36,343 bases of DNA. It comes from a virus. The DNA lies in IMG/VR virus record IMGVR_UViG_3300027710_000070, positions 1 to 36,343 of that record; one strand, given 5' to 3'. Positions within the stretch are counted from its first letter, which is position 1, and each line of letters begins with the position of its first letter. This document shows positions 5,846-34,123 of the stretch, piece after piece. A program made the position numbers and the translations under genes. A model generated the notes under the pieces. The model had not been told where the DNA came from, made no database searches, and worked only from the letters and a program-made list of their open reading frames with translations.

Positions 5846-5878
5846 GCACACAGGTTTATTTAGGATTGCGTTATGTCT
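5837..5878 (+). promoter_or_regulatory. Inverted repeat with the fibre start codon in its 3' arm
   Basis: AGACATAATGCA (5837-5848) pairs with TGCGTTATGTCT (5867-5878) over 12 positions with one T-G wobble. The ATG of the fibre gene (5873-5875) is inside the 3' arm, and the weak Shine-Dalgarno TAGGA (5861-5865) sits in the loop. The 5' arm contains the -10 hexamer, so only RNA read through from the terminase operon could form it. Confidence 0.65.
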
Positions 5879-7690
5879 ATCATCATTTCCCCCGTTATTA
5901 CCAATGCAGGTTTAGGCGTTTTCACCCCATTGGCGACAGGCATTGAGTTTACGTTTACCCATGTGGCGGTAGGTACTGGCACAAGTGCGGCTAGTGCGGC
6001 GAGCACTGCCTTAGAAAACGAGATAGCTCGATTCCCGATAGCAGGGGGTGGCATGGTCACGGGTGGGCAAGCGGCATCTATCAATGCGTTAATTGCTAAT
6101 CATGCGAACGCCAATCCGCAAAATTATGACATTAGCGAAATCGGTTTTTATGGTAATGATGGTGCAAGCAATGCGGTTTTATTTGCTATTTATCGCCAAA
6201 ATACGACGATTATTAGTAAGGTGTCTGGTGCTGATATATCGCTCCCCTTTGTGCTGGGATTGGCCGCATTACCTGTCAATAATATGACGGTGTTAATTGA
6301 TACTAATACCAGTCAGACGTTGGCGTTATTAGGTCAACATACCGCGTCTAATCATCCACATACGCAATATAAACGCACTTTAGACAATACTGAGCGGTTG
6401 AAAATTGCAACGGCGGTTGATGCAGACGAAGCAATTAGAAAAGATGAATTAGATGCGCTACGGTTGCGGTTAATTGCAAACGGGATTGATGCGGATTTAG
6501 CGGTTACAAACAACGCAACAGGATTAGATTTTAACAATGATCAATTTAAAGTCGCTGGTGTTTGGTACTTTGACCATGCTTTGAATACGTCAACAGAAGA
6601 TACGGCTGGCATCATTACGGTAAAAAAAGTAGGAAACAAAGCGTATCAGCATGAGATTTTAGAAAATGGTCAGGCGGCCAATAGGGTTTTTACAGGCGTT
6701 CAATGGTTGCCGTGGGTATATCAAACTGGCGCGATACAAGGGGTGGTTACGTTTATTCCTATTGATGATTATGCTGACTTAAATGACTTTAATACTGTGG
6801 GTTATTTTATTTTTAGCACTAGCGATAATGTTGGTCATGCCCCGCCAACATACGGATTAGAATCGGATTACGAAATGGAAGTGTTGTTATCAGGCGGAAA
6901 TCTTATTCAAATTGTGAAAAATATAACAACAAATTCAAGCTTTATTCGTGCAAGAAATAACATCGGAGTTTGGTCTAATACATGGTTTTTGACTCCGCCA
7001 ATTCAGAATATTGTTACAAATGCCAATTTAGACAACATTCGCTCAGAGGGCGTGTATTTGTGTACAGGGTCTCAATTCCTTTATGGATACCCTTCTTTGT
7101 ACGACACAAATGACGTTTGTATTTTGTATGTCGAAAACTCAAATACATTACAAACTGTGGTGCAAGTTATCCATAGAATTAAACATGATGATAATGTAGA
7201 CCATATTGATATGCAAAGTAGGTCATTAATTGATGACGGGACTAACACTTTTTATTCTTGGAGTAGTACATATGATAATGATGGTATAACATCATATTTT
7301 CTAAATGGTGACAAATTTCAAGGATTATTTGATTATTTGGATATTGTTGGTTTTTCTTATGTTGATTTGGATGGTTTCAAAACACTTATTAACGTGCGAG
7401 AAGGTCAACATCATTATATACTTCGTAATTATAATTTGAATAATGTGACGCAGGAAGGGATTTATATTTTCACCCTTAACGATAATATAGAAAACATTCC
7501 GTCTATTTTTACCGATGCAAATCATTTTTGCTTTTTATTGGTAATACAGCACAGCTCTAGTCAAAAAACCGCCCAAATTATATTCCAAGGGCATAGCAAC
7601 GAAATATCATCAGAGGTATATATCAGGCATCAGTCTCCTGCTGACTGGCAAAATCACGTTACGCCTCCTGATTGGGTGATTGTTCCCTAA
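5873..7690 (+). CDS. Tail fibre with collar-type N-terminus and knob-like repeats
   Basis: A 605-residue protein. Residues 1-160 (FTHVAVGTGTSAASAAS, DISEIGFYGNDGASNAVLFAIYR) match the phage tail-collar fibre N-terminal domain that fixes the fibre to the baseplate. A linker with NHPHTQYKRTLDNTERLKIATAVD follows. The C-terminal half holds three similar units beginning near residues 299 (DLNDFNTVGYFIF), 384 (NLDNIRSEGVYLC) and 519 (NLNNVTQEGIYIF). These have the L-N/D-x(3-4)-G-Y/I pattern of pyocin-knob/tail-fibre repeats and probably bind host receptors. The DNA from about 6780 to 7560 is visibly more AT-rich than its neighbours, as expected of exchanged host-range segments. It is first in its operon behind leader 2. 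Confidence 0.82.
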   Translation: MSIIISPVITNAGLGVFTPLATGIEFTFTHVAVGTGTSAASAASTALENEIARFPIAGGGMVTGGQAASINALIANHANANPQNYDISEIGFYGNDGASNAVLFAIYRQNTTIISKVSGADISLPFVLGLAALPVNNMTVLIDTNTSQTLALLGQHTASNHPHTQYKRTLDNTERLKIATAVDADEAIRKDELDALRLRLIANGIDADLAVTNNATGLDFNNDQFKVAGVWYFDHALNTSTEDTAGIITVKKVGNKAYQHEILENGQAANRVFTGVQWLPWVYQTGAIQGVVTFIPIDDYADLNDFNTVGYFIFSTSDNVGHAPPTYGLESDYEMEVLLSGGNLIQIVKNITTNSSFIRARNNIGVWSNTWFLTPPIQNIVTNANLDNIRSEGVYLCTGSQFLYGYPSLYDTNDVCILYVENSNTLQTVVQVIHRIKHDDNVDHIDMQSRSLIDDGTNTFYSWSSTYDNDGITSYFLNGDKFQGLFDYLDIVGFSYVDLDGFKTLINVREGQHHYILRNYNLNNVTQEGIYIFTLNDNIENIPSIFTDANHFCFLLVIQHSSSQKTAQIIFQGHSNEISSEVYIRHQSPADWQNHVTPPDWVIVP

Positions 7691-12002: not shown

Positions 12003-13079
12003 ATGAGATTAAATGACCCGCTTTTCCCTGCAACTTCAACCGACCCATCATTAACTGACAAAGTGTTAGGTGTAGTCGGTGGATTGGTCAAATTAATGAC
12101 GTTGCAGCAGATTAAAAATATTGTTGATAGCTCCGTTACTGTCGAAAATGTTCTCACGTCAACAAGCACCACTAGCGCGTTATCAGCCAATCAAGGTAAG
12201 GTTTTAAAAGCCGCAATTGATGCTATTCCTGCGCCAACAACTCCTATTACGGTGGTTGATGCACTTAACTCAAATAGTACAACTAGCGCGTTATCCGCAG
12301 CACAGGGCAAGGCTTTGGAAGATACAAAAGCCCCTTTAGCAAGTCCTGCTTTCACAGGCAACCCCACCGCCCCTACTGCTACGTCTGAGACTGACAACGA
12401 CGAGATAGCGACAACCGCTTTTGTCCACGATATTACAGACGCAATTGTTACCGCTCTAGGCGACAAATGTCCTTTAGTTGAAGGTAAAGTCCCGTCCGAG
12501 AATCTGCCTTCTTATGTGGATGATGCCTTAGAGTTTGCTAATTTAGCAGCGTTTCCCGTGACGGGTGAAGGCGGAAAAATTTACATAGCGGCGAATACTA
12601 ATTTAATTTACCGCTGGACAGGTTCGACTTACGTGCTAATTGGCGACGGGACAAGTGTTGATGTTGTTGGCGTGGGGGCTAATGCCTTTCCTCGTTATGA
12701 TATTGCTCAAACTTTGTCGGATGTCGCTAAATCCCAATTGCTCACCAACATTGGGGCTAAAAAGTCCTACAACTTACTCAATAAAACCGCCTCTTACACC
12801 TTAGCTTTAGCTGATTTTCAAAACGATGTTGATTTGTACGACAAGGTTTATCTGCGGATGAATCTCGCTACTGCCAATAACGTGACCGTTGATACATCAT
12901 TGACAACATTACCAAACTTAACTGAAATTAGCATTAGAAACGTGGGGACGGGCTTCACCACCTTAGTTGCTAGTGGTACTACATTAAACGGAATTTTAGT
13001 GTTTAACACTGTCAATGAAGTCAAGACGCTGATTAAAGTCGGGGTTAATGAGTGGGATGTGGTGGGAGCATTAACATGA
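12003..13079 (+). CDS. Second tail fibre protein
   Basis: A 358-residue protein with modules common in phage fibres. There are two copies of a short repeat, STSTTSALSANQGKVLKAA (about 55-73) and SNSTTSALSAAQGKALEDT (about 90-108). The SPAFTGNPTAPTAT...ATTAFV fibre repeat follows (about 115-145). A beta segment with GGKIYIAANTNLIYRWTGSTYV comes next (about 185-210), then a beta-rich C-terminal domain. The last base-triplet TGA overlaps the next ATG. It starts after a leader with hairpin and AAGG. Its N-terminus differs from the collar fibre at 5873, so it may attach elsewhere or form the shaft for the lectin-like product of the next gene. Confidence 0.8.
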   Translation: MRLNDPLFPATSTDPSLTDKVLGVVGGLVKLMTLQQIKNIVDSSVTVENVLTSTSTTSALSANQGKVLKAAIDAIPAPTTPITVVDALNSNSTTSALSAAQGKALEDTKAPLASPAFTGNPTAPTATSETDNDEIATTAFVHDITDAIVTALGDKCPLVEGKVPSENLPSYVDDALEFANLAAFPVTGEGGKIYIAANTNLIYRWTGSTYVLIGDGTSVDVVGVGANAFPRYDIAQTLSDVAKSQLLTNIGAKKSYNLLNKTASYTLALADFQNDVDLYDKVYLRMNLATANNVTVDTSLTTLPNLTEISIRNVGTGFTTLVASGTTLNGILVFNTVNEVKTLIKVGVNEWDVVGALT

Positions 13080-20065: not shown

Positions 20066-23000
20066 ATGAAAACTGATTACGAAAAATTTAAGATTTTAGG
20101 CACAATTTCGGCATTACTCCGCCAATTAGAAGAGCCAAGTGCCAAGCCTGAGCTTGATATGTTTGGTGAGCCTATCGCTTCACCCAATAAGACGCTCGAT
20201 GTCACCCGTGTCGATGTCAAAGACATTAAAGTTGATCCTAAAGCCTACCAATTCCGTAGTGAAGTTGGCCATGACGGTACGGACAAACGCTTGAATGAAG
20301 TCAAGGCGTGGGATGACTTACGCGCAGGGGTCATGGTGATACATGAGCGTCACGATGGCCAACAGTTTATTGCCGATGGCCATCATCGTATTGCCTTGGC
20401 GAAGAAATTGGGTGTCGATGGGGTGAATGCCTTTGTCTTGAAAGAAAGCGAAGGGCATACCGTCGATGATGCCAAATCATTAGCCGCCTTAGTCAATTTG
20501 GCCAACAATAACGGCACAGGTGTTGATGCCGCTAAATTGTTCCGCAGCAATGCTAAGGGCAAACGTCCAGAACAGTTAATGGAAGACTTAAACCTCCCCA
20601 AAAATCAAGCCATTAAAACGGGTGTTGCTTTGGCCAAACTCTCCGACGATGTGTTCGGTTCGGTGGTCAATGGTGTGATTGAAGAGCGTGATGGTGCGGT
20701 CATTGGTGATACGTTTAGCAGTCCAGAGGAACAACAAGCCGCCTTAAAGCAATTCATGCGTGTACGTCCTGCTAACCAAGAAGAGTCTCAAGTCTTAGCA
20801 CAACAGATTAAATTAGCAGGATTCTCTAAGGCGCAAGCATCCGATAACTTTGACTTGTTTGGTAGCGAGTTAGATACTGATAGTTTGTTAGGCGAACGGA
20901 CACGGCTAATCGTGGCATTAGGCCGAGCCTATAAAAAAGATAAAACCTTGTTTGAAACACTGGGGATCAATGCCAGCAAAATTGAGCAAGCAGGTAATCA
21001 ACTGGATAAGGAAACCAATTCCAAGCTCAGTAATGAAGCAACCGTCATGCAGTCATTGCTTGGTGAGCAGATTTACACTAATCCAAAAATGAAGCAGGTC
21101 TTAGACCAATACGCCACCGAGCTAAAAGACAATCCGAATGGTATGGCCACTATTTTGGCCAAGCTTAAACAAGCCTTGCCACAGGTGATGAGTAACGCTA
21201 AACCCGTGTTTGACGATGCGGGTAACGCGGATTTTGAAGCCTTTATGTTGATTGCTGAGGCGACCCGTTTATTAGAAACACTTAGCGTTGATAGCGATGA
21301 TTTTTTCACACAGTTGATGCGTTTACAGGCGATTATTGCTCAATTAGAGGGCTTAAATACTAGCCCGCCCAAGAGCCAAGATAGCGAACCCGATCATGAG
21401 GAACGTGTGACCCGTGGCAAACGTCAAAAAGCCAATAATGCCGCCATTGCCTTGTTGAAGAAAATTGATAGTGGTGAAGCGGAAGTGACACCTGAAGCCA
21501 AAGCCATTTTAGCCAAATATAGCGGTGGTGGTGGTAACTTAGTCAATGCTGACGGGACGATGGGGAGTGATTATGAATACTACACGCCTAAACCCATTGC
21601 GAAGGCGATGTGGTCATTGTTGGGTGAGTTGGGCTTTGCGGGTGGCAAAGTCTTAGACCCTAGTGCAGGCGTAGGCGTGTTTGGTAGCAATGCTCCGACC
21701 AATGCCGTGGTTGACTCGATTGAGCTAGACCATACATCGGGTCGAATCAATCAAATCCTAAATAGTAGCGAAAAGCAGAAAATCGTTATTTCGCCCTTTG
21801 AAGAAGTTGCCGCTAAAACACCTGATAATCTCTATGACGTGGTAGTGACGAACGTGCCGTTTGGTGACGTGGGTTCACGGGGCGCAAATCGCTTTAAGGA
21901 CAAACGCTACAGTGATAAGCCGCTAGACTATTACTTTATCTTACGGTCTTTAGAAAAGCTCAAGTACGGCGGTTTAGCGGCCTTTATCGTGCCGCCACGG
22001 ATTGTTAGCGGTAAAGAAAAGATCAATAACGACTTACGCTATAACGCTTCGTTAATGGCTGAATTCGTTGGCGCGTATCGTTTGCCGAATGTGGTGTTTG
22101 CCAATGCAAATGCTGACACCATTACCGATGTTGTGGTGTTCCGTAAATTCGCTAAAGATAGCACTGAACAAATTGAAGCCCTGTTAAGCCAAAACACGGA
22201 TGTATTGCGTGAATCAAACGTCTTGTTTGATGATTTCCTACAAGGGGATTATTTCAAAACCGAAGGTCATCGTTTTATCTTGGGTGAGTTTCAAGCCAAA
22301 GACCCTAATAAGTACCGTGATGTTGACCGTGTGATCCACCACGGGAGCATGACCGATATTGCTAAGTTACTGACAAAGTTTCCTGATAGTCGAATCAATT
22401 GGGCATTGCTGAATACCTCGCCAACTTTGCCGATTATTTACCGTGAAGGCGACACGTTGGTACACGGTGGCCAAACCTTACAAATGCGTGCGGGCGATTG
22501 GGTCGTTAAGCAATCGGACATCGAGCAAGACGCAGAAATGGCGGTATTAGGTTCAACACTAGCGACTCCAGCCGTTGCGCTCGCCAATGCCATGACTTAT
22601 GCCGATGGTAAGCAGTACCATGATTATTTAGTGCGCTTGGGTCGTTTTGACGATGTTTCTGACTGGCTAAAAGACGTGAATACTTCGGTGTTGCTTGTTG
22701 CGGAAAACACCCGTGCCGCTTACTGGCAAGCGATTACCGCAGGTTTCGCCGTGCAAAATGCCTTTATTCGCCACGGTGAATTAAAAGAAGAAGGGCAAGA
22801 GCAATTTAACTATAACGCCACCTATCCCTTTATTAGCAAAGCCTTGTTAGATAATGTCCCCATTATCCGTAGTCCGTCCTCCAAGCTGGATAAAATAGCC
22901 AAAGGCGCATTAGGCCGTGCTAAGGGCGTGGTACTGAAAGAGGGTTTATCTAAATTATGGCTGGGTGAAAGCAACACGATTGCCGACTTAGATGTACAAG

Positions 23001-26000
23001 ACCTAACCTCTTATCAGCAATATGAAAAGCTCATGTATGGCACAACAGGCCAAGCCAAGTTTGTCCCTGTTGTTGAGATGAAAAAAGTCATGGGTGATGA
23101 CTTTGACCCAATGACCAGTGATGACTGGTGTTTAAGTGCCGATGGTCAAGGCGTACTTCATGCGGATGATTATTTTGTTGGTAACTATAAAGCCTTTTTA
23201 GACACCCTTGATAGCCAGCTTGATACTGTGACCGATGAGGCGGTGCGTACTAAGTTACTCCGTCAAAAAATGATTGCCGATCATCGGGTGCGTAAAACCG
23301 ATGTCGAAAAAATGTCATTTAACTTGCACTCACCGTTTGTCGATATTCAAACCAAGGTGGAGTTTTTACAACGCTACATTAACCCGTCATTCCGTATTGA
23401 ATATGACGGTGATGAGCCTGTGATTGCCATTCCTGAAAGCGTCCGTAAAGAAGGCGAGCGTGGTCGAAACCTTGGCCGATTTGTCGAGTACCTGAAAACA
23501 GGCCGTGCCTTTACCTTGACCAGTAGTAAAGATGCTGAAGATGATCCAGAGATGGAGAAAGCCCGCCTCAAGTCGCTAATGGACACCATCGAGAAGGCAG
23601 AGGCACAATTCGAGGTATGGGTTAAAGCCAATCCTAAAGTCATCGCCTCATTACAAGCCAAAGCGAATAATCCAGAGATTTTAGATTTTATTGAAGTAGA
23701 GGCCACATCGAGCCTTGAGATTAAAGGCTTTAATCCAAAAACAAAAAGTCCAGACTTTGCAATGCACGGTTATCAAAATGCCGCTGTGCGTAAAAATGGC
23801 CGTCATTTTGGCGGTATTTTGGGCTTGGATGTGGGCTTAGGTAAAACATTGACGGCCTTAGCCTCTGTGCAATATGTCCATAGCATCGGGGCAAAGAAAA
23901 AGACAATGGTGATTGTGCCTGCCTCGGTATTATCCAATTGGAAAAAAGAAGCCACTTTTGCCTATGAGAACTTAGACGATTGCTTGTTTGTTGGCTTGCG
24001 TCAAAACAAACAGGGCAAGGACACGGTTAGTTCGTCGGCTTATGATGAAGACCTAAATGTGGTGCTTGAAAATCGTCACAAGAAAATCTTCTTAACGCTT
24101 GAAGCCTTTGCCAAAATTCCATTACGTGAAAAAACGAAGTCATTGTACTTAGAGCACTTGGCGGAAACCGATGATCGTTTTGATGTCTATGGTAAAGACA
24201 GTAAAAAGGCACAAGAGCGAGCCAAAGGTGCAGCCGCACAAGCGGTAGAAGACATTGGTGAAAAGTCTGGTGCCGTGCCATTCTTTGAAGACATGGGTAT
24301 TGATAGTCTGGTGATGGACGAAGGCCATGTTTATAAGAACAGCCGTACCACTAACGAATTTAAGTCGGCTAAATTTTTAGCCTCACCGACCATCTCGCAG
24401 CGTGGTGCAGACGCGAATATTAAATGTTGGGTCGTCCGTGGCGATAATGCCAAAGGTGATGGTGTCATGGTGTTGACTGCGACCCCGATTACTAACAGCC
24501 CACTCGAAATTTACAATATGTTGTCGTTGGCTGTTGGTGAAAAACAGGTCAACAAAGGCATGTTGGGGATTAAAGGTGTTGACGAGTTTATGGAGGCATT
24601 TGCCGATATTTCCGAAGAAGAAAGCGTCAACATCGTCGGTGAACCTAAGCTATACCGTACCTTTACAGGCTTGCGTAATGTCGAGTTATTGCGCTCGATG
24701 TTACATAGCAATGCCAACATTCGTACTGCCAAACAAGAAAACCTGAAAATTCCAGAGGCCGATGAAGTCAAAGTCGGTGTTGCCTTGGGCGATCCTGCCG
24801 AACGCTGTTTACGCCGATTGTCTGCCGTGTATGCCTTGGCGCGTGACTTTGAAAAAGGCAATCTACACAATGAAGACGAGTTAAAAATGCTTATGGCGGC
24901 TCAAGCGGATTTTAACGAGCCGATTAAACTGTTAGCGCACCCATTCAACCTGATTAAGAAAATGACCGATGTCATCATAGATCAAGATGTGGGCATGGAT
25001 AAAGCAACCCGTTGGACATTCTTGACCCCACAAGCCGCACTTGCTCAGAAAGTCGTGGATGCCTTTAATAAAACTAAGCAAAACGTCAAACAGGTGCGTT
25101 TAAGTCCATTGCAAAGTGAAGACGATGTTCTGTCTCACACCACGGACAAGGACGAAAATGGCGAGTCTTACGATGTCTTAAAGGTGATGATTCGTGCCGT
25201 CATCGAAAAAGACGGCGTGATTGTGTTGCCGACAACTAACTTTGACGTGACGGGTAAGTTTTTAGAGATTGCCGCTAAAATGGGCTTAGAGATAGATACT
25301 AATCTGTCACCTAAAGTCGCAGCCATGATCGAAAACTTTAAAAAGGAAAATGCCCACTCACGCAATGGTACGATCAAAGTGAAGCAGATTATTTTCTGTG
25401 ACTTGCTAGTGATGCACCACAAGTTAAAAGTCATCTTGAGCCAACAATGTGGTATTCCAGCCGATAAGATTGCCATTATTAACGGTACATCCATTAAAGA
25501 CCCCGTGGATATGCAAATTATCCAAGACGGCTTTAATGCCAATGATGACGAAAATCAGTATCAAATCATCATTGCCAATGAAAAAGCCGAAGTGGGTATC
25601 AACCTACAGAAAGGCACGCAGGCGATTCATCACTTAACGATTCACTGGACACCTGACAGCCTACAACAACGTAATGGTCGTGGTGTGCGTCAAGGTAATC
25701 ATGTGGAGAAGGTCAGTGTCTATTACTACGATGCGAATGGTACGTTTGATGAGTACAAGCGTAACCTCGTCAATAAAAAGGCGGATTGGATTAGCCAAGT
25801 AATGACCAATGGCGGCGGCAATAAAGTACAAATTGCGAACGGACTCAGCAATACCGACTATGAAACCATGATTGCCTCCATTGGTGATGCTGACGCACTC
25901 CGCAAAGCGCAAGAAGAAAAAGAGTCTAAAGAAAAGGATCAACGCGCCCAAACGAGCAAGAAAACACAATTGCAGCAATTGAATACCATTGACTCACAGA

Positions 26001-27784
26001 AAGAGCAGCTTAAACGCCTAAACGATACAGGTGAACAAGTAGCGACTCTGTATAAAAAAGCCTTTGATCTCTATGCCGTAATGCGTAAATCAAGAACTGC
26101 GGCCAACAATGCGGATGCAAGCCCTGCATTTAGAAAACGTGCTCAAGCCCGTTATGAGCAAATCAAAGTCCAGTATGATGAAATTGCTAAAACGATTCGT
26201 GGGTCAGTGGTTTTTAGGGACTGGAAAAAAGACTTGATTGATGTCGATAGTGCGTTAAGCGTGGCCACCACTCGCTATAAAACAGCCGATGTATGGTCTG
26301 AAAAAGAACGTATTCAATATGCGTTTAATTCGGTTGTAGAGGGTTCGGAGTTGGACATTAGCATTGCCACAGAAAAGAAAATCTCTGAAAGCATGATCGA
26401 GCAAGCGGTGAAGTCATTTGCCGATGCGGATAATGGCTATCACCCATCACTAGCAGACGCTTATAACAAAGGCGAAGCGATACTGATTGGCAATACGATT
26501 GCCGAAGCAGGGACGTTTGCCTATGACAAGCAGGGTGATTTGTGGGTACTAGCGAAACGCAATTCATTCTATTTTGTGCGTGGTGTGGCTGAAAAATTCC
26601 AAGCCAGAGGTCAAGAATTATATCGTTTTGATGACTACCAGAAATCAAATGGCGGTCGCTTTGGTAATGAGTTTAATAGCTTTGCACAACTCATTACCCG
26701 TCACGATCCTGACTATCAACAAACCTTAATCAAAGCAGCAGCGATTGACGATGACTTGTCTCGCAAAACAGGGTTTAGAAACCCAGATAAAAAGTTCTTG
26801 TTGGCCGATTACAACCCAGAAGTGGCGGCTTATCATCAAGTGAAGTCTAGGGTGTGGTATAGCGCAAAAGACTATACATTACCGTTTGGCTTTCCTTATG
26901 TGGCTGACTCCATTAAGTATTTTGATGAGTCGGTATTAAATGAGATTCGCCACGATCAACATGTGAGTATTGATGTTGAAGGCTCTGGACAATATACCCA
27001 GTTTGCATTTAAAGCGGGTAGTGCATTTGAAGTAGATGGTATCGAGCCGATTCGGGTATCAGAAGATAACCCTGTTACTTTGGAAAAAACAGCCCTTGCA
27101 TTGATTGATTTTGCCAGTGCCAACCGATTAGAAATAAAAGGATTGTTAAGTTTTCTGATAATGAACGGTGTAGGTAATGCGAATAAAGTCGATTATATTG
27201 ATCTGTTGGCTTTGCGGTTAGATGGTGCAAAACTCAAACAGCAGGTTTTTGCTGAGTTAGATAAATTACCGTCAATGCCCAATGTCTTTAAAACGAAAAA
27301 AGAGGCGGATGACTGGCTAGTTAAGGAAGTCCCGATCATGGTTGTCGCCAATAAGCAGACAGCATGGTGTTTGGATGTATTTAGTTTGACGATTTTCGAC
27401 ATCGCTAAACTATTACATTTAGAGCTTGATGAGTTATACCAGTACGTGACCGAGGAAGCCCCTGTCATTCCTGAGCCTGTTGCCATTGAACCTGTTAAGC
27501 AAGACAGTGGTATTGCGGCATTGATTGCATCACAGGAAAAATGGGGATTAGTTGCTTTAACCGATGCAAACAAGCCTAGCTCGAAAGAGGACAGCCCAAC
27601 GTATCGAATGAAGGATAGGATTAAGGATATTTCTACAACGCTATCCCGTAAGCAGGCAGGATGGCACGGTAAAACCGCCTCATGGACAATTACAACCGAA
27701 GTATGTGCTCGATTGTTTGAAGGCTATCCTGACCAAATGAAAGACGTTGCTATCATTGCCCCACAATACAGTGAGCTGAAGTGA
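20066..27784 (+). CDS. DarB-like giant anti-restriction protein: ParB-like, DNA methylase and SF2 helicase
   Basis: 2572 residues, uninterrupted. A ParB/sulfiredoxin-like domain is at about 45-130 (FIADGHHRIALAKKLGVDGV). An N6-adenine methylase is at about 500-720: SAM motif VLDPSAGVGVFG near 530 and catalytic VVTNVPFG near 594, a variant of NPPF. A SNF2/DEAD-type helicase is at about 1230-1900: LGLDVGLGKT (Walker A, near 1255), VMDEGH (near 1416), TATPITNS (near 1471), and motif V/VI GINLQKGT...QQRNGRGVRQGN (about 1844-1878). Coiled coil 1930-2000 follows, then a less defined C-terminal region. P1 DarB, of similar build, is packaged in the head and protects injected DNA from type I restriction. 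AGAAGGG precedes the ATG. Confidence 0.9.
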   Translation: MKTDYEKFKILGTISALLRQLEEPSAKPELDMFGEPIASPNKTLDVTRVDVKDIKVDPKAYQFRSEVGHDGTDKRLNEVKAWDDLRAGVMVIHERHDGQQFIADGHHRIALAKKLGVDGVNAFVLKESEGHTVDDAKSLAALVNLANNNGTGVDAAKLFRSNAKGKRPEQLMEDLNLPKNQAIKTGVALAKLSDDVFGSVVNGVIEERDGAVIGDTFSSPEEQQAALKQFMRVRPANQEESQVLAQQIKLAGFSKAQASDNFDLFGSELDTDSLLGERTRLIVALGRAYKKDKTLFETLGINASKIEQAGNQLDKETNSKLSNEATVMQSLLGEQIYTNPKMKQVLDQYATELKDNPNGMATILAKLKQALPQVMSNAKPVFDDAGNADFEAFMLIAEATRLLETLSVDSDDFFTQLMRLQAIIAQLEGLNTSPPKSQDSEPDHEERVTRGKRQKANNAAIALLKKIDSGEAEVTPEAKAILAKYSGGGGNLVNADGTMGSDYEYYTPKPIAKAMWSLLGELGFAGGKVLDPSAGVGVFGSNAPTNAVVDSIELDHTSGRINQILNSSEKQKIVISPFEEVAAKTPDNLYDVVVTNVPFGDVGSRGANRFKDKRYSDKPLDYYFILRSLEKLKYGGLAAFIVPPRIVSGKEKINNDLRYNASLMAEFVGAYRLPNVVFANANADTITDVVVFRKFAKDSTEQIEALLSQNTDVLRESNVLFDDFLQGDYFKTEGHRFILGEFQAKDPNKYRDVDRVIHHGSMTDIAKLLTKFPDSRINWALLNTSPTLPIIYREGDTLVHGGQTLQMRAGDWVVKQSDIEQDAEMAVLGSTLATPAVALANAMTYADGKQYHDYLVRLGRFDDVSDWLKDVNTSVLLVAENTRAAYWQAITAGFAVQNAFIRHGELKEEGQEQFNYNATYPFISKALLDNVPIIRSPSSKLDKIAKGALGRAKGVVLKEGLSKLWLGESNTIADLDVQDLTSYQQYEKLMYGTTGQAKFVPVVEMKKVMGDDFDPMTSDDWCLSADGQGVLHADDYFVGNYKAFLDTLDSQLDTVTDEAVRTKLLRQKMIADHRVRKTDVEKMSFNLHSPFVDIQTKVEFLQRYINPSFRIEYDGDEPVIAIPESVRKEGERGRNLGRFVEYLKTGRAFTLTSSKDAEDDPEMEKARLKSLMDTIEKAEAQFEVWVKANPKVIASLQAKANNPEILDFIEVEATSSLEIKGFNPKTKSPDFAMHGYQNAAVRKNGRHFGGILGLDVGLGKTLTALASVQYVHSIGAKKKTMVIVPASVLSNWKKEATFAYENLDDCLFVGLRQNKQGKDTVSSSAYDEDLNVVLENRHKKIFLTLEAFAKIPLREKTKSLYLEHLAETDDRFDVYGKDSKKAQERAKGAAAQAVEDIGEKSGAVPFFEDMGIDSLVMDEGHVYKNSRTTNEFKSAKFLASPTISQRGADANIKCWVVRGDNAKGDGVMVLTATPITNSPLEIYNMLSLAVGEKQVNKGMLGIKGVDEFMEAFADISEEESVNIVGEPKLYRTFTGLRNVELLRSMLHSNANIRTAKQENLKIPEADEVKVGVALGDPAERCLRRLSAVYALARDFEKGNLHNEDELKMLMAAQADFNEPIKLLAHPFNLIKKMTDVIIDQDVGMDKATRWTFLTPQAALAQKVVDAFNKTKQNVKQVRLSPLQSEDDVLSHTTDKDENGESYDVLKVMIRAVIEKDGVIVLPTTNFDVTGKFLEIAAKMGLEIDTNLSPKVAAMIENFKKENAHSRNGTIKVKQIIFCDLLVMHHKLKVILSQQCGIPADKIAIINGTSIKDPVDMQIIQDGFNANDDENQYQIIIANEKAEVGINLQKGTQAIHHLTIHWTPDSLQQRNGRGVRQGNHVEKVSVYYYDANGTFDEYKRNLVNKKADWISQVMTNGGGNKVQIANGLSNTDYETMIASIGDADALRKAQEEKESKEKDQRAQTSKKTQLQQLNTIDSQKEQLKRLNDTGEQVATLYKKAFDLYAVMRKSRTAANNADASPAFRKRAQARYEQIKVQYDEIAKTIRGSVVFRDWKKDLIDVDSALSVATTRYKTADVWSEKERIQYAFNSVVEGSELDISIATEKKISESMIEQAVKSFADADNGYHPSLADAYNKGEAILIGNTIAEAGTFAYDKQGDLWVLAKRNSFYFVRGVAEKFQARGQELYRFDDYQKSNGGRFGNEFNSFAQLITRHDPDYQQTLIKAAAIDDDLSRKTGFRNPDKKFLLADYNPEVAAYHQVKSRVWYSAKDYTLPFGFPYVADSIKYFDESVLNEIRHDQHVSIDVEGSGQYTQFAFKAGSAFEVDGIEPIRVSEDNPVTLEKTALALIDFASANRLEIKGLLSFLIMNGVGNANKVDYIDLLALRLDGAKLKQQVFAELDKLPSMPNVFKTKKEADDWLVKEVPIMVVANKQTAWCLDVFSLTIFDIAKLLHLELDELYQYVTEEAPVIPEPVAIEPVKQDSGIAALIASQEKWGLVALTDANKPSSKEDSPTYRMKDRIKDISTTLSRKQAGWHGKTASWTITTEVCARLFEGYPDQMKDVAIIAPQYSELK

Positions 27785-32064: not shown

Positions 32065-32814
32065 ATGAGCTTGCAAGAAATGTTGGTTGGTCGTTTATAT
32101 ACGCCGCAACAAGTTAAAGACATTCAAGACGGTAAAAAGCCATTAAAGAACCGTTTAGACGGGGCGAATGATGGCAAAGAAATGAATGTCACCTTAGATA
32201 AAATGGTGGCCATTGCAGCGATGGCAGATATTCGCACCAAGGCGGCCTATGCCGTTCAAACATGGGCAGAAACGGACGATCTGGACAAAGATGAATCGTT
32301 GTATGACCGTTTAGATGCGTTGATTAGTGCCATTGCCGATGGGGGTATTGATTTAGACGGTGATGCCAGTACCGACGATACCGATGATGTGTATATGGTG
32401 GCCATGCAAGCAGCCAGTGATTACATGAGTGCTTTAGGTGCGGATGATAACGACCTAGAAACTTTGTTTAATAGCAAAGATGATGGTGCGCGTGATGAAG
32501 CGGCAAATCGTTTACTTGAATTTTTAATGCAAGCTCTAGGCGATGATGAAGATGCAGCCGAGCAAGCCGTTAAAGCCTTTGCCTTTGATATGGATAGTGA
32601 TGGTAGTGTTTTTGACAGTGCCAACTTCAAGAAAACGGTTGGTATCCGTGATGGCAAAAAAACCATACTGAAAAAACGTCTCGGCACAAAGTTAAAACGC
32701 ACGCCTAAGCAAAAAGCGGCATTGATGAAGGCGCAACACAAAGCGCACTCAGGCGCGGCTAATTTGCACCGTCAGAAGTCGTTAAATATTGGCCGTAAGG
32801 CGGGTTTGTATTAA
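32065..32814 (+). CDS. Acidic virion-associated protein with basic C-terminus, unrecognised
   Basis: 249 residues. The centre (about 75-190) is strongly acidic and D/A-rich (DLDGDASTDDTDDVYM, ALGDDEDAAEQAV). The last 55 residues are K/R-rich (KKRLGTKLKRTPKQKAALMKAQHKAHSG). This split charge is seen in scaffolds, internal head proteins and DNA-mimic-like proteins, but no family is recognisable. GAGGGGTGAT before the ATG is a strong ribosome-binding site. It closes the capsid-sheath operon; an intrinsic terminator follows 20 bases after the stop. Confidence 0.65.
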   Translation: MSLQEMLVGRLYTPQQVKDIQDGKKPLKNRLDGANDGKEMNVTLDKMVAIAAMADIRTKAAYAVQTWAETDDLDKDESLYDRLDALISAIADGGIDLDGDASTDDTDDVYMVAMQAASDYMSALGADDNDLETLFNSKDDGARDEAANRLLEFLMQALGDDEDAAEQAVKAFAFDMDSDGSVFDSANFKKTVGIRDGKKTILKKRLGTKLKRTPKQKAALMKAQHKAHSGAANLHRQKSLNIGRKAGLY

Positions 32815-32834
32815 CGATTAATGTGTTGGTAATG

Positions 32835-32865
32835 AAAAAGGGTTGCTGAAAAGCGACCCTTTTTT
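32835..32865. terminator. Bidirectional intrinsic terminator
   Basis: AAAAAGGGTTGC (32835-32846), loop TGAAAA, GCGACCCTTTTT (32853-32864), with an A-run before and a T-run after the GC stem (one T-G wobble). It can terminate the sheath operon on the plus strand and, by its symmetry, a transcript of the CRISPR-like mini-array on the minus strand. Confidence 0.85.
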
Positions 32866-32949
32866 ATTGCTGCCTATGCGGCAGTGAACGTGGGTATACA
32901 AGATGTTATTATGGGTAGCATTTTCTAAGCTGCCTATACGGCAGTGAAC
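32862..32949 (-). CRISPR. Phage-borne type I-F CRISPR mini-array with one 32-nt spacer
   Basis: On the minus strand the 28-nt repeat at 32949-32922 begins GTTCACTGCCGTATAGGCAG and ends CTTAGAAA, matching type I-F repeats. It is followed by a spacer of exactly 32 nt (32921-32890), the I-F standard. A second repeat at 32889-32862 keeps GTTCACTGCC-GCATA-GGCAG but has a degenerate end (CAATAAAA), as in terminal repeats. Cas6f cleavage would give a normal crRNA: 8-nt handle, 32-nt guide, 3' hairpin. A minus-strand -10-like TATAAC (32978-32973) lies about 24 bases before the array, and the bidirectional terminator follows it. No cas gene is in the window, so host Cas proteins would be required. Confidence 0.85.
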
Positions 32950-32972
32950 GTAATTTTCACACAAAAAGACGA

Positions 32973-32978
32973 GTTATA
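32973..32978 (-). promoter_or_regulatory. Possible -10 box for the mini-array
   Basis: TATAAC on the minus strand, in an AT-rich stretch, would give a start near 32966 and a leader of about 16 bases before the first repeat. No convincing -35 box is seen, so this is tentative. Confidence 0.3.
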
Positions 32979-33004
32979 AAAGTAATTTAACCCACATTTT
33001 AAAT

Positions 33005-33044: not shown

Positions 33045-33080
33045 CCATTTAATATGAATTTTGTTTTGAGTGATTTCGAT

Positions 33081-33596
33081 ATGAACACCCCTTTATTGTT
33101 TGATATTAAAAACTTGTCCACAGAAGCCGACAGCATGAAGCGGCTAATTGATATGTTTTCGATGCTCGGCGAAACACTGGTAACTCACGATGTTGATAAA
33201 GCCTTAAAACGTAGTGCAGGCATTACTTATAAAGAAGTCTCTTTAACCTTTGCTGATAGCCAAACAGTGACGTTTTCAATCAAACAAACGGGCGATATTT
33301 GGAAAGTTAAACTCAATAACAAGCAAATCACCTTACGCAATCAAGACGCGCATAAGCCTGAAGCCGTGATCCAAGAAATTGCTCAAAAAATCAAAGCAGG
33401 GCGTACCGCTTACCAAAAAGCTGAAGCCGCTAAAACCAAAGCCGATGATGTGGTGCAATCTGTCAAACAGGCAGGGCTTAAAAATACTCAAAAGATGCGA
33501 GTGGCTGCATTAACGGAACAGGCCAAAGCTCTGGATGATGTGATTACCGAAACGCAGAAGATCAAGGCAGAACTTGAGACGGAGTTGGGAAAGTAG
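33081..33596 (+). CDS. Small DarA-like / polyvalent-type protein (tentative)
   Basis: 171 residues from ATG 33081; I prefer it to ATG 33054 because the predicted promoter start would leave no leader for the latter. Residues about 40-100 (YKEVSLTFADSQTVTFSIKQTGDIWKVKLNNKQITLRN) form a clear beta sheet reminiscent of the N-terminal domain of DarA-type anti-restriction proteins. The C-terminal 70 residues are an Ala/Lys/Gln-rich coiled coil. The presence of a DarB-like gene in the same genome makes an internal head protein plausible. The family name is recollection, not a search result; a chaperone-like or structural role remains possible. Confidence 0.4.
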   Translation: MNTPLLFDIKNLSTEADSMKRLIDMFSMLGETLVTHDVDKALKRSAGITYKEVSLTFADSQTVTFSIKQTGDIWKVKLNNKQITLRNQDAHKPEAVIQEIAQKIKAGRTAYQKAEAAKTKADDVVQSVKQAGLKNTQKMRVAALTEQAKALDDVITETQKIKAELETELGK

Positions 33597-33652: not shown

Positions 33653-34123
33653 ATGTCTTTTGCTCAAGTTACAGAGCATAAAGGCAAGCGGATTTTGCAG
33701 TTCATTAACGATATTGATAGCGGTAAAAGCAAATGGCATAAAATTATTTTGGGCGAGTTGTCTCCTCGTGCAACGACTAAAATGGCTTCATCGCTTGGGC
33801 TAGTTCTTGCTAAACCTTTGCAGATTTTCATTAAAGACACTGTTCTTCATGCGCGTAATCGTAAACATACATTAACCAATAGTGATTGGATGCAATATCC
33901 TGAATTGTTGGAGTTATTCGATGAGGTAGATTACGGCAAGCCTTCGCTCAATCCTGACTTACTTAGAGTGGTGCTTAAAAGAAAACTATCGGCTAATCGT
34001 TGGCAAGGAGGAGTTGCAGACTTAGCATTAAAAGGGAAAGAACCAAAAATGCTGTCGGTGACGTATTTTATTGGGAATGATAAGGAGATAGAAGCGTGGT
34101 GGCAGCAAAACAAAAAGCCCTAA
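33653..34123 (+). CDS. Stand-alone BECR-type nuclease candidate
   Basis: 156 residues with the layout of phage BECR (barnase-EndoU-colicin-RelE) domains: WHKIILGELSPRATTKMASSLGL, then IFIKDTVLHARNRKH, LTNSDWMQYPELLELFDEVDYG and beta strands closing with PKMLSVTYFIGN. The H...K-H...W...P spacing is what suggests the fold; His and Lys could be catalytic. Such domains are usually parts of polyvalent proteins, as in the gene at 16563; here it is alone. No immunity gene is recognisable next to it. GGAAAGAAG precedes the ATG by 11 bases. It may be a moron or an injected toxin domain. The assignment is moderate. Confidence 0.45.
   Translation: MSFAQVTEHKGKRILQFINDIDSGKSKWHKIILGELSPRATTKMASSLGLVLAKPLQIFIKDTVLHARNRKHTLTNSDWMQYPELLELFDEVDYGKPSLNPDLLRVVLKRKLSANRWQGGVADLALKGKEPKMLSVTYFIGNDKEIEAWWQQNKKP

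Follow-up and report, generated by a model that had tools for sequence, protein, structure and literature searches.

Described viral mini-arrays and the present locus

Viral mini-arrays use the repeats of their hosts and mostly target related viruses (PMC11656645), and they have been tested in competition between two archaeal viruses (PMC6858448). Those of the archaeal viruses SPV1 and SPV2 contain one or two spacers, lack cas genes and carry host-like repeats and a leader (Medvedeva et al. 2019, PMC6858448), and those of bacteriophages and prophages comprise a single spacer with a host-type repeat in a phage genome without cas genes (PMC11656645). As the phage mini-arrays known at that time were leaderless, spacer gain by recombination was proposed for them in 2019 (PMC6858448). 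The prophage arrays of Clostridioides difficile are served by host cas genes located elsewhere (PMC6079278), and the type I-F CRISPR-Cas of ICP1 lies in a phage at a locus which holds other cargo in other strains (PMC11656645). The locus described here is comparable with the mini-arrays in spacer number, host-type repeats and the absence of detected cas genes, with the C. difficile arrays in its presumed reliance on host cas genes, and with ICP1 in type and in its variable cargo site.

The window, i.e. the whole stretch of DNA analysed, is a 36,343-base fragment from a viral record, and contains on the minus strand (32862-32949) two type I-F repeats around a 32-nt spacer. The array has one spacer between host-type repeats in a viral genome, with cas genes not detected, as in the mini-arrays above. 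Viral mini-arrays are known as a class; what is notable here is the presence of a leader, in contrast to the leaderless phage mini-arrays of PMC6858448. The array is a one-spacer mini-array in a cargo hotspot of a P1-like phage, probably derived from an Agitococcus-type I-F array and probably directing the host Csy/Cas3 machinery against a competing mobile element.

Phage carrier and absence of detected cas genes

The window encodes a portal (phrog_1497), a terminase-like protein, a tape measure, a tail sheath (phrog_1036) and a PmgG-like head protein, together with three antirestriction relatives (DarA, Ulx-like and Hdf-like). The portal, sheath, DarA, Hdf, Ulx and PmgG families bear out the phage setting given in the preliminary description of this DNA, and the carrier is assigned as a P1-like contractile phage, related to a phage found in Agitococcus. 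Its portal is most closely related to those of IMG/VR contigs (72-97% identity), and shares 72% identity with one encoded on a contig of Agitococcus lubricus DSM 5822.

PADLOC gave no match among the 10 window proteins tested, and tblastn of Cas1, Cas2-3 and Csy1-4 from A. lubricus found none in the window, both in agreement with the earlier statement that no cas genes are near. The array therefore appears to be unaccompanied by cas genes in this window, which is a fragment of the phage genome, the rest of the phage lying outside it.

Two other features of the window were observed. A 2572-residue ORF (20066-27784) near the Ulx-like gene has relatives in other P1-like contigs with 41-44% identity. 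In the tail fibre genes at 5873-7690 and 12003-13079, conservation among close relatives is confined to the N-terminal ends, as expected for host-range modules.

Repeats, spacer and predicted crRNA

The array comprises the following elements:

32922..32949, minus strand: CRISPR repeat 1, leader-proximal, canonical I-F, Rfam CRISPR-DR4; GTTCACTGCCGTATAGGCAGCTTAGAAA
32890..32921, minus strand: spacer of 32 nt, exactly between both repeats; ATGCTACCCATAATAACATCTTGTATACCCAC
32862..32889, minus strand: CRISPR repeat 2, terminal, last 7 nt degenerate, hairpin intact; GTTCACTGCCGCATAGGCAGCAATAAAA

Repeat 1 matches the Rfam family CRISPR-DR4 (RF01317) at 28 of 28 positions with 49.1 bits (gathering threshold 35; E = 9.8e-9) and is the only Rfam match of the window at gathering threshold, so the match is far beyond chance. 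Repeat 2, which falls below the CRISPR-DR4 threshold when taken alone, differs from repeat 1 in one loop base (T-to-C) and in several of the last seven bases. The match and the repeat period of 60 nt (28 + 32) confirm two minus-strand I-F repeats flanking a 32-nt spacer, as first described, with an intact first repeat and a second one changed past the Cas6f cut. Identical copies of repeat 1 occur in I-F arrays of other genomes of the host family, and the array itself was observed in a single metagenomic contig.

RNA fold prediction gives the hairpins of both repeats a 5-bp CUGCC/GGCAG stem with a 5-nt loop, and the predicted fold of the array shows both hairpins and a downstream stem formed by the inverted repeat at 32831-32868 (z = -3.6). 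Cas6f cuts I-F repeats after G20, and the last seven bases of repeat 2 would therefore lie outside the mature RNA. Repeat 1 would yield the 8-nt 5' handle CUUAGAAA (as RNA, CTTAGAAA), and the expected crRNA, consisting of this handle, the spacer and the intact hairpin of repeat 2, is exactly 60 nt long. As the degeneration of repeat 2 is confined to bases beyond the Cas6f cut, a normal 60-nt crRNA is possible from the array, and the claim that the parts for one standard crRNA are present (handle, 32-nt spacer, intact second hairpin) holds as far as the sequence can tell.

The same anatomy bears on the proposal that the RNA is an RNA anti-CRISPR (Racr) or crRNA decoy, flooding host Cas6f and Cas7f or the Csy complex and thereby blunting immunity. 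Mimics of the I-F repeat are known in phages (PMC10651486), and the array resembles RacrIF1 and the solitary repeat units (Camara-Wilpert et al. 2023, PMC10651486) in encoding a phage I-F repeat RNA that Cas6f would presumably recognise; it also lies beside an antirestriction gene, and a solitary exact I-F repeat is present in another viral contig. However, a Racr is by definition a lone repeat unit, and mini-arrays are excluded by the published finder (PMC10651486). A solitary unit has no partner within 100 bp, and here the second repeat is 60 nt off. With its spacer of exactly 32 nt, its proper 5' handle and its 3' hairpin, the present RNA should assemble into a normal complex, and RacrIF1 itself gave a functional crRNA once a repeat and a spacer were added (PMC10651486). 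The decoy role suggested earlier is thus weakened, as the anatomy of the array corresponds to a functional crRNA rather than to a lone repeat unit, and it is considered quite unlikely.

The I-F system of the host type

The nearest relative phage is carried by A. lubricus, in which cas1f, cas2-3, csy1, csy2, csy3 and csy4 all score well above the NCBIfam cut-offs, and the cas operon adjoins an array of 62 repeats with spacers mostly of 32 nt. The A. lubricus repeat differs from the phage repeat in the hairpin loop only (GCACA versus GTATA, respectively). From this I-F system and the occurrence of the phage repeat in arrays of the family, the phage lineage is predicted to infect bacteria with a matching I-F effector. 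The host type of the phage is identified as Agitococcus or a close relative of it that has a complete I-F system, A. lubricus being the carrier of the related phage. The 118 spacers of the genus Agitococcus matched these phages no better than shuffled spacers did.

Other I-F elements were observed in these genomes and contigs. In A. lubricus, two degenerate I-F repeats surround a short spacer on the minus strand between cas2-3 and csy1 (L047, 6115-6200), a position like that of the CreA RNA in the Acinetobacter I-F CreTA, so a CreTA module is probable in Agitococcus. In a viral contig of 170 kb (L051, 3673-3700), an exact I-F repeat occurs singly, with no partner in a pattern search and no leader-like sequence upstream, and is a candidate RNA anti-CRISPR. 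Another genome of the family has an I-F locus in decay (L105, 1501-1648), with a broken csy4-like frame, an intact leader and two to three fading repeats.

CreTA exists in the Acinetobacter I-F system as a mini CRISPR-like element giving a crRNA-like RNA (PMC10097628), and the phage RNA might likewise be a regulatory or antitoxin guide, leading Csy by partial pairing to repress a phage promoter or a host one, either that of the cas operon or that of a CreT toxin. The degenerate repeats between cas2-3 and csy1 of A. lubricus give this some footing. CreA, however, lies inside the cas locus, has degenerate repeats and partly matches a target nearby, unlike the present array, whose repeat 1 is canonical. 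Neither the A. lubricus cas region nor the window contains a CC-flanked match to a spacer prefix of 8 or more, and in the phage loci examined the longest prefix match is as long as the one obtained with shuffled spacers. The array does not show the characters of a CreA guide, the cas region compared being that of A. lubricus and not of the phage's own host, and such a regulatory role is regarded as very improbable.

Leader and probable terminator

The array is bounded by the following elements:

32950..33000, minus strand: truncated I-F leader, repeat-proximal ~50 nt, presumed array promoter, assigned by leader homology
32831..32868, strand not assigned: inverted repeat with 17-nt arms, 88% complementary, probable bidirectional terminator

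In register with the repeat, the phage leader shares 41 of 50 positions with that of a genuine array of 30 repeats in another genome (G192) of the genus of A. lubricus, and 35 of 50 with the A. lubricus leader; an ungapped alignment to the A. lubricus leader, with a one-base shift at the repeat border, has 37 identical of 52 positions. The local alignment of the phage leader scores 62, and the highest value among 1000 dinucleotide shuffles is 34. In a profile built from 18 I-F leaders, the phage leader scores 17.4, which is the top position of the window and higher than all 966,558 control positions (maximum 14.9). A few of the 18 leaders are imperfect (e.g. L053 and L104), which weakens the profile slightly, and more weight was thus placed on the G192 comparison. 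The ~50 nt upstream of repeat 1 can be identified by this homology as a captured I-F leader of a host array.

Promoters of CRISPR arrays reside in the leader. The "possible promoter" of the preliminary description found no match in a sigma-70 scan upstream of the array, but it gained a recognisable I-F leader which is presumed to hold it. An IHF consensus near -97 is present in 12 of the 13 host leaders examined, and none was found within 250 nt upstream of the phage array. IHF is reported to be critical for folding the I-F leader for Cas1-2/3 (PMC12259127). The phage leader lacks the IHF site of an adaptation-competent I-F array; the array is therefore probably fixed while still transcribed, and new spacers by normal adaptation are unlikely.

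The inverted repeat shares 7 nt with the end of repeat 2 and forms a strong stem in the fold of the minus-strand RNA. It probably serves as terminator for both the upstream plus-strand gene and the minus-strand array. The bidirectional terminator proposed earlier is supported by this stem, but a simple terminator scan does not include it in its list.

Insertion site

The backbone genes on both sides of the array are as follows:

32065..32814, plus strand: phrog_1053 protein (E = 3.7e-42), left backbone neighbour, adjoining the tail sheath gene
33054..33596, plus strand: Hdf-like antirestriction protein (phrog_1620, E = 1.6e-27; PF18788, DarA_N domain), right backbone neighbour

Between these two genes the window contains only the terminator, the array and the leader. 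In a phage contig of A. lubricus (L048), the gene for the sheath (83% identity) is likewise followed by that for a phrog_1053 homologue (72%); 9.8 kb of cargo then precede the genes for an Hdf-like homologue (73%) and a PmgG-like protein. Homology to L048 extends on the left up to 32818 and begins again on the right from 32999. In Xanthomonas phage Rb1 and related loci of Pseudomonas, Paraburkholderia and Nevskia, the PmgG-like gene directly follows the phrog_1053 gene. As this site is occupied in L048 by the ~9.8 kb of cargo, the array can be placed in a variable cargo hotspot between phage backbone genes.

The cargo of L048 (658-10423) encodes an LRR-Roc-COR protein with a GT4-conflict domain, a PLD-like protein, a BRO-N protein and two reverse-strand genes, and is possibly an undescribed defence module. 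In the window, a 156-residue ORF (33653-34123) between the Hdf-like and PmgG-like genes has no family match; the corresponding interval of L048 is too short to contain it, so that it may represent a second, small cargo gene.

An assembly chimera was judged unlikely, as the insert consists of leader and array alone between backbone segments collinear with L048; the clean boundaries and the hotspot between phage backbone genes speak against an assembly graft.

An IMG/VR search with the neighbour protein and the sheath found no relative spanning the array site (the hit in L013 being a 17-residue match), and the I-F repeat was not found in the related viral contigs, most of which do not cover the region. 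Conservation of the repeat in related phages, which had been named as a check on the array, was not found, as the sole relative covering the site (L048) carries unrelated cargo there; this cargo speaks for recent acquisition at a hotspot and not against function.

These observations also bear on the possibility of a neutral relic, i.e. a piece from the leader end of a host array, acquired through recombination, that is decaying without selected function. The array has a single known copy, its target was not found in the searches described below, its repeat 2 is degenerate at the 3' end, its leader is truncated, and it is absent from the sole relative covering the site. However, all parts for a mature crRNA are intact, the array abuts a terminator, and the insert comprises nothing but the array and ~50 nt of leader, the phage genome being otherwise compact. 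A neutral relic is thus considered unlikely.

Search for the target

No protospacer was found by blastn of the spacer in 50,697 phage and 72,556 plasmid records, where the best matches, covering 53-84% of the spacer at E values of 0.9 or above, are consistent with chance. In IMG/VR, no exact 20-mer of the spacer was found, and the full-length comparisons started from its 16-nt halves all had 9-14 mismatches. The back-translated guess VGIQDVIMG gave no target, ten related viral records contained no protospacer, and the window of the carrier phage contained no second match.

The spacer might instead be aimed at host DNA or a chromosomal anti-phage island, aiding infection, for which the ICP1 CRISPR against PLE is a precedent (PMC11656645). 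In 349 genomes of the host family, however, there was no match with up to 3 mismatches, nor with the five flipped-out positions (every sixth) left free, and this possibility is given hardly any weight.

Most environmental phage spacers have no database match, and the missing protospacer is therefore uninformative about function, leaving the use against a competitor unproved. The check proposed in the preliminary description, a search of the spacer for protospacers, came back empty for phages, plasmids, IMG/VR, the 349 family genomes and the ten related viral records. Its suggestion that the phage redirects host Cascade against a competing phage or a host locus is favoured by the crRNA-competent array, but no collection searched gave a protospacer, and it is kept as a proposal.

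Proposed mechanism

In the mechanism proposed for the mini-array, a unit of leader, repeat, spacer and repeat would have been derived from a host I-F array and inserted in the cargo hotspot. During infection or lysogeny, the leader would drive a minus-strand transcript ending at the terminator, from which host Cas6f/Csy4, cutting after G20 of each hairpin, would release the 60-nt crRNA CUUAGAAA-spacer-GUUCACUGCCGCAUAGGCAG. This crRNA would load the host Csy complex and send Cas2-3 to DNA carrying a protospacer with a CC PAM, the most likely target being a rival phage or another mobile element, with superinfection exclusion as the outcome. Without the distal IHF site, the array would probably be fixed and take up no spacers by normal adaptation. 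Transcription, Cas6f processing, Csy loading and targeting by the array are what we infer from its parts; use against another element is the most likely function, and the antirestriction protein encoded by the neighbouring gene is counted in support.

A more specific account is offered tentatively, in which the phage took the leader-proximal end of a host I-F array, keeping the promoter and losing the IHF site, so that a heritable guide is expressed but can not be overwritten through adaptation in the host and is swapped as hotspot cargo. If this is true, a crRNA would be an exchangeable cargo gene of phages, swapped with protein-coding conflict genes at one hotspot.

Comparison with known systems

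The leader and the repeat indicate the origin of the array, both pointing to an Agitococcus-type I-F array, and its position in a hotspot where a relative has conflict-type genes suggests crRNAs to be tradable like other phage weapons. The locus offers a concrete, testable case of a bacterial phage using the CRISPR system of its host through a single guide.

Racr and a CreA-like regulator are poorer fits to the locus than a mini-array. RacrIF1 is a solitary repeat, whereas the two repeats and 32-nt spacer found here would be expected to give a full Csy complex. ICP1 carries a full cas set and an adaptation module, while no cas genes were detected with the present array. The prophage arrays of C. 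difficile are of type I-B, and the block of related competing phages was proposed there, as it is here. Spacers of phage mini-arrays mostly match related viruses (PMC11656645) and those of SPV1 and SPV2 match sister viruses, while no match was found for the present spacer. The phage mini-arrays known in 2019 have no leaders (PMC6858448), while the present array has ~50 nt of one, and its cut before the IHF site suggests capture by recombination followed by fixation. SPV1 and SPV2 differ from the present carrier, a tailed phage with an I-F array and a truncated leader without an IHF site. Judged by its parts, the array has the anatomy of the archaeal SPV type, placed in a tailed phage and with its leader truncated.
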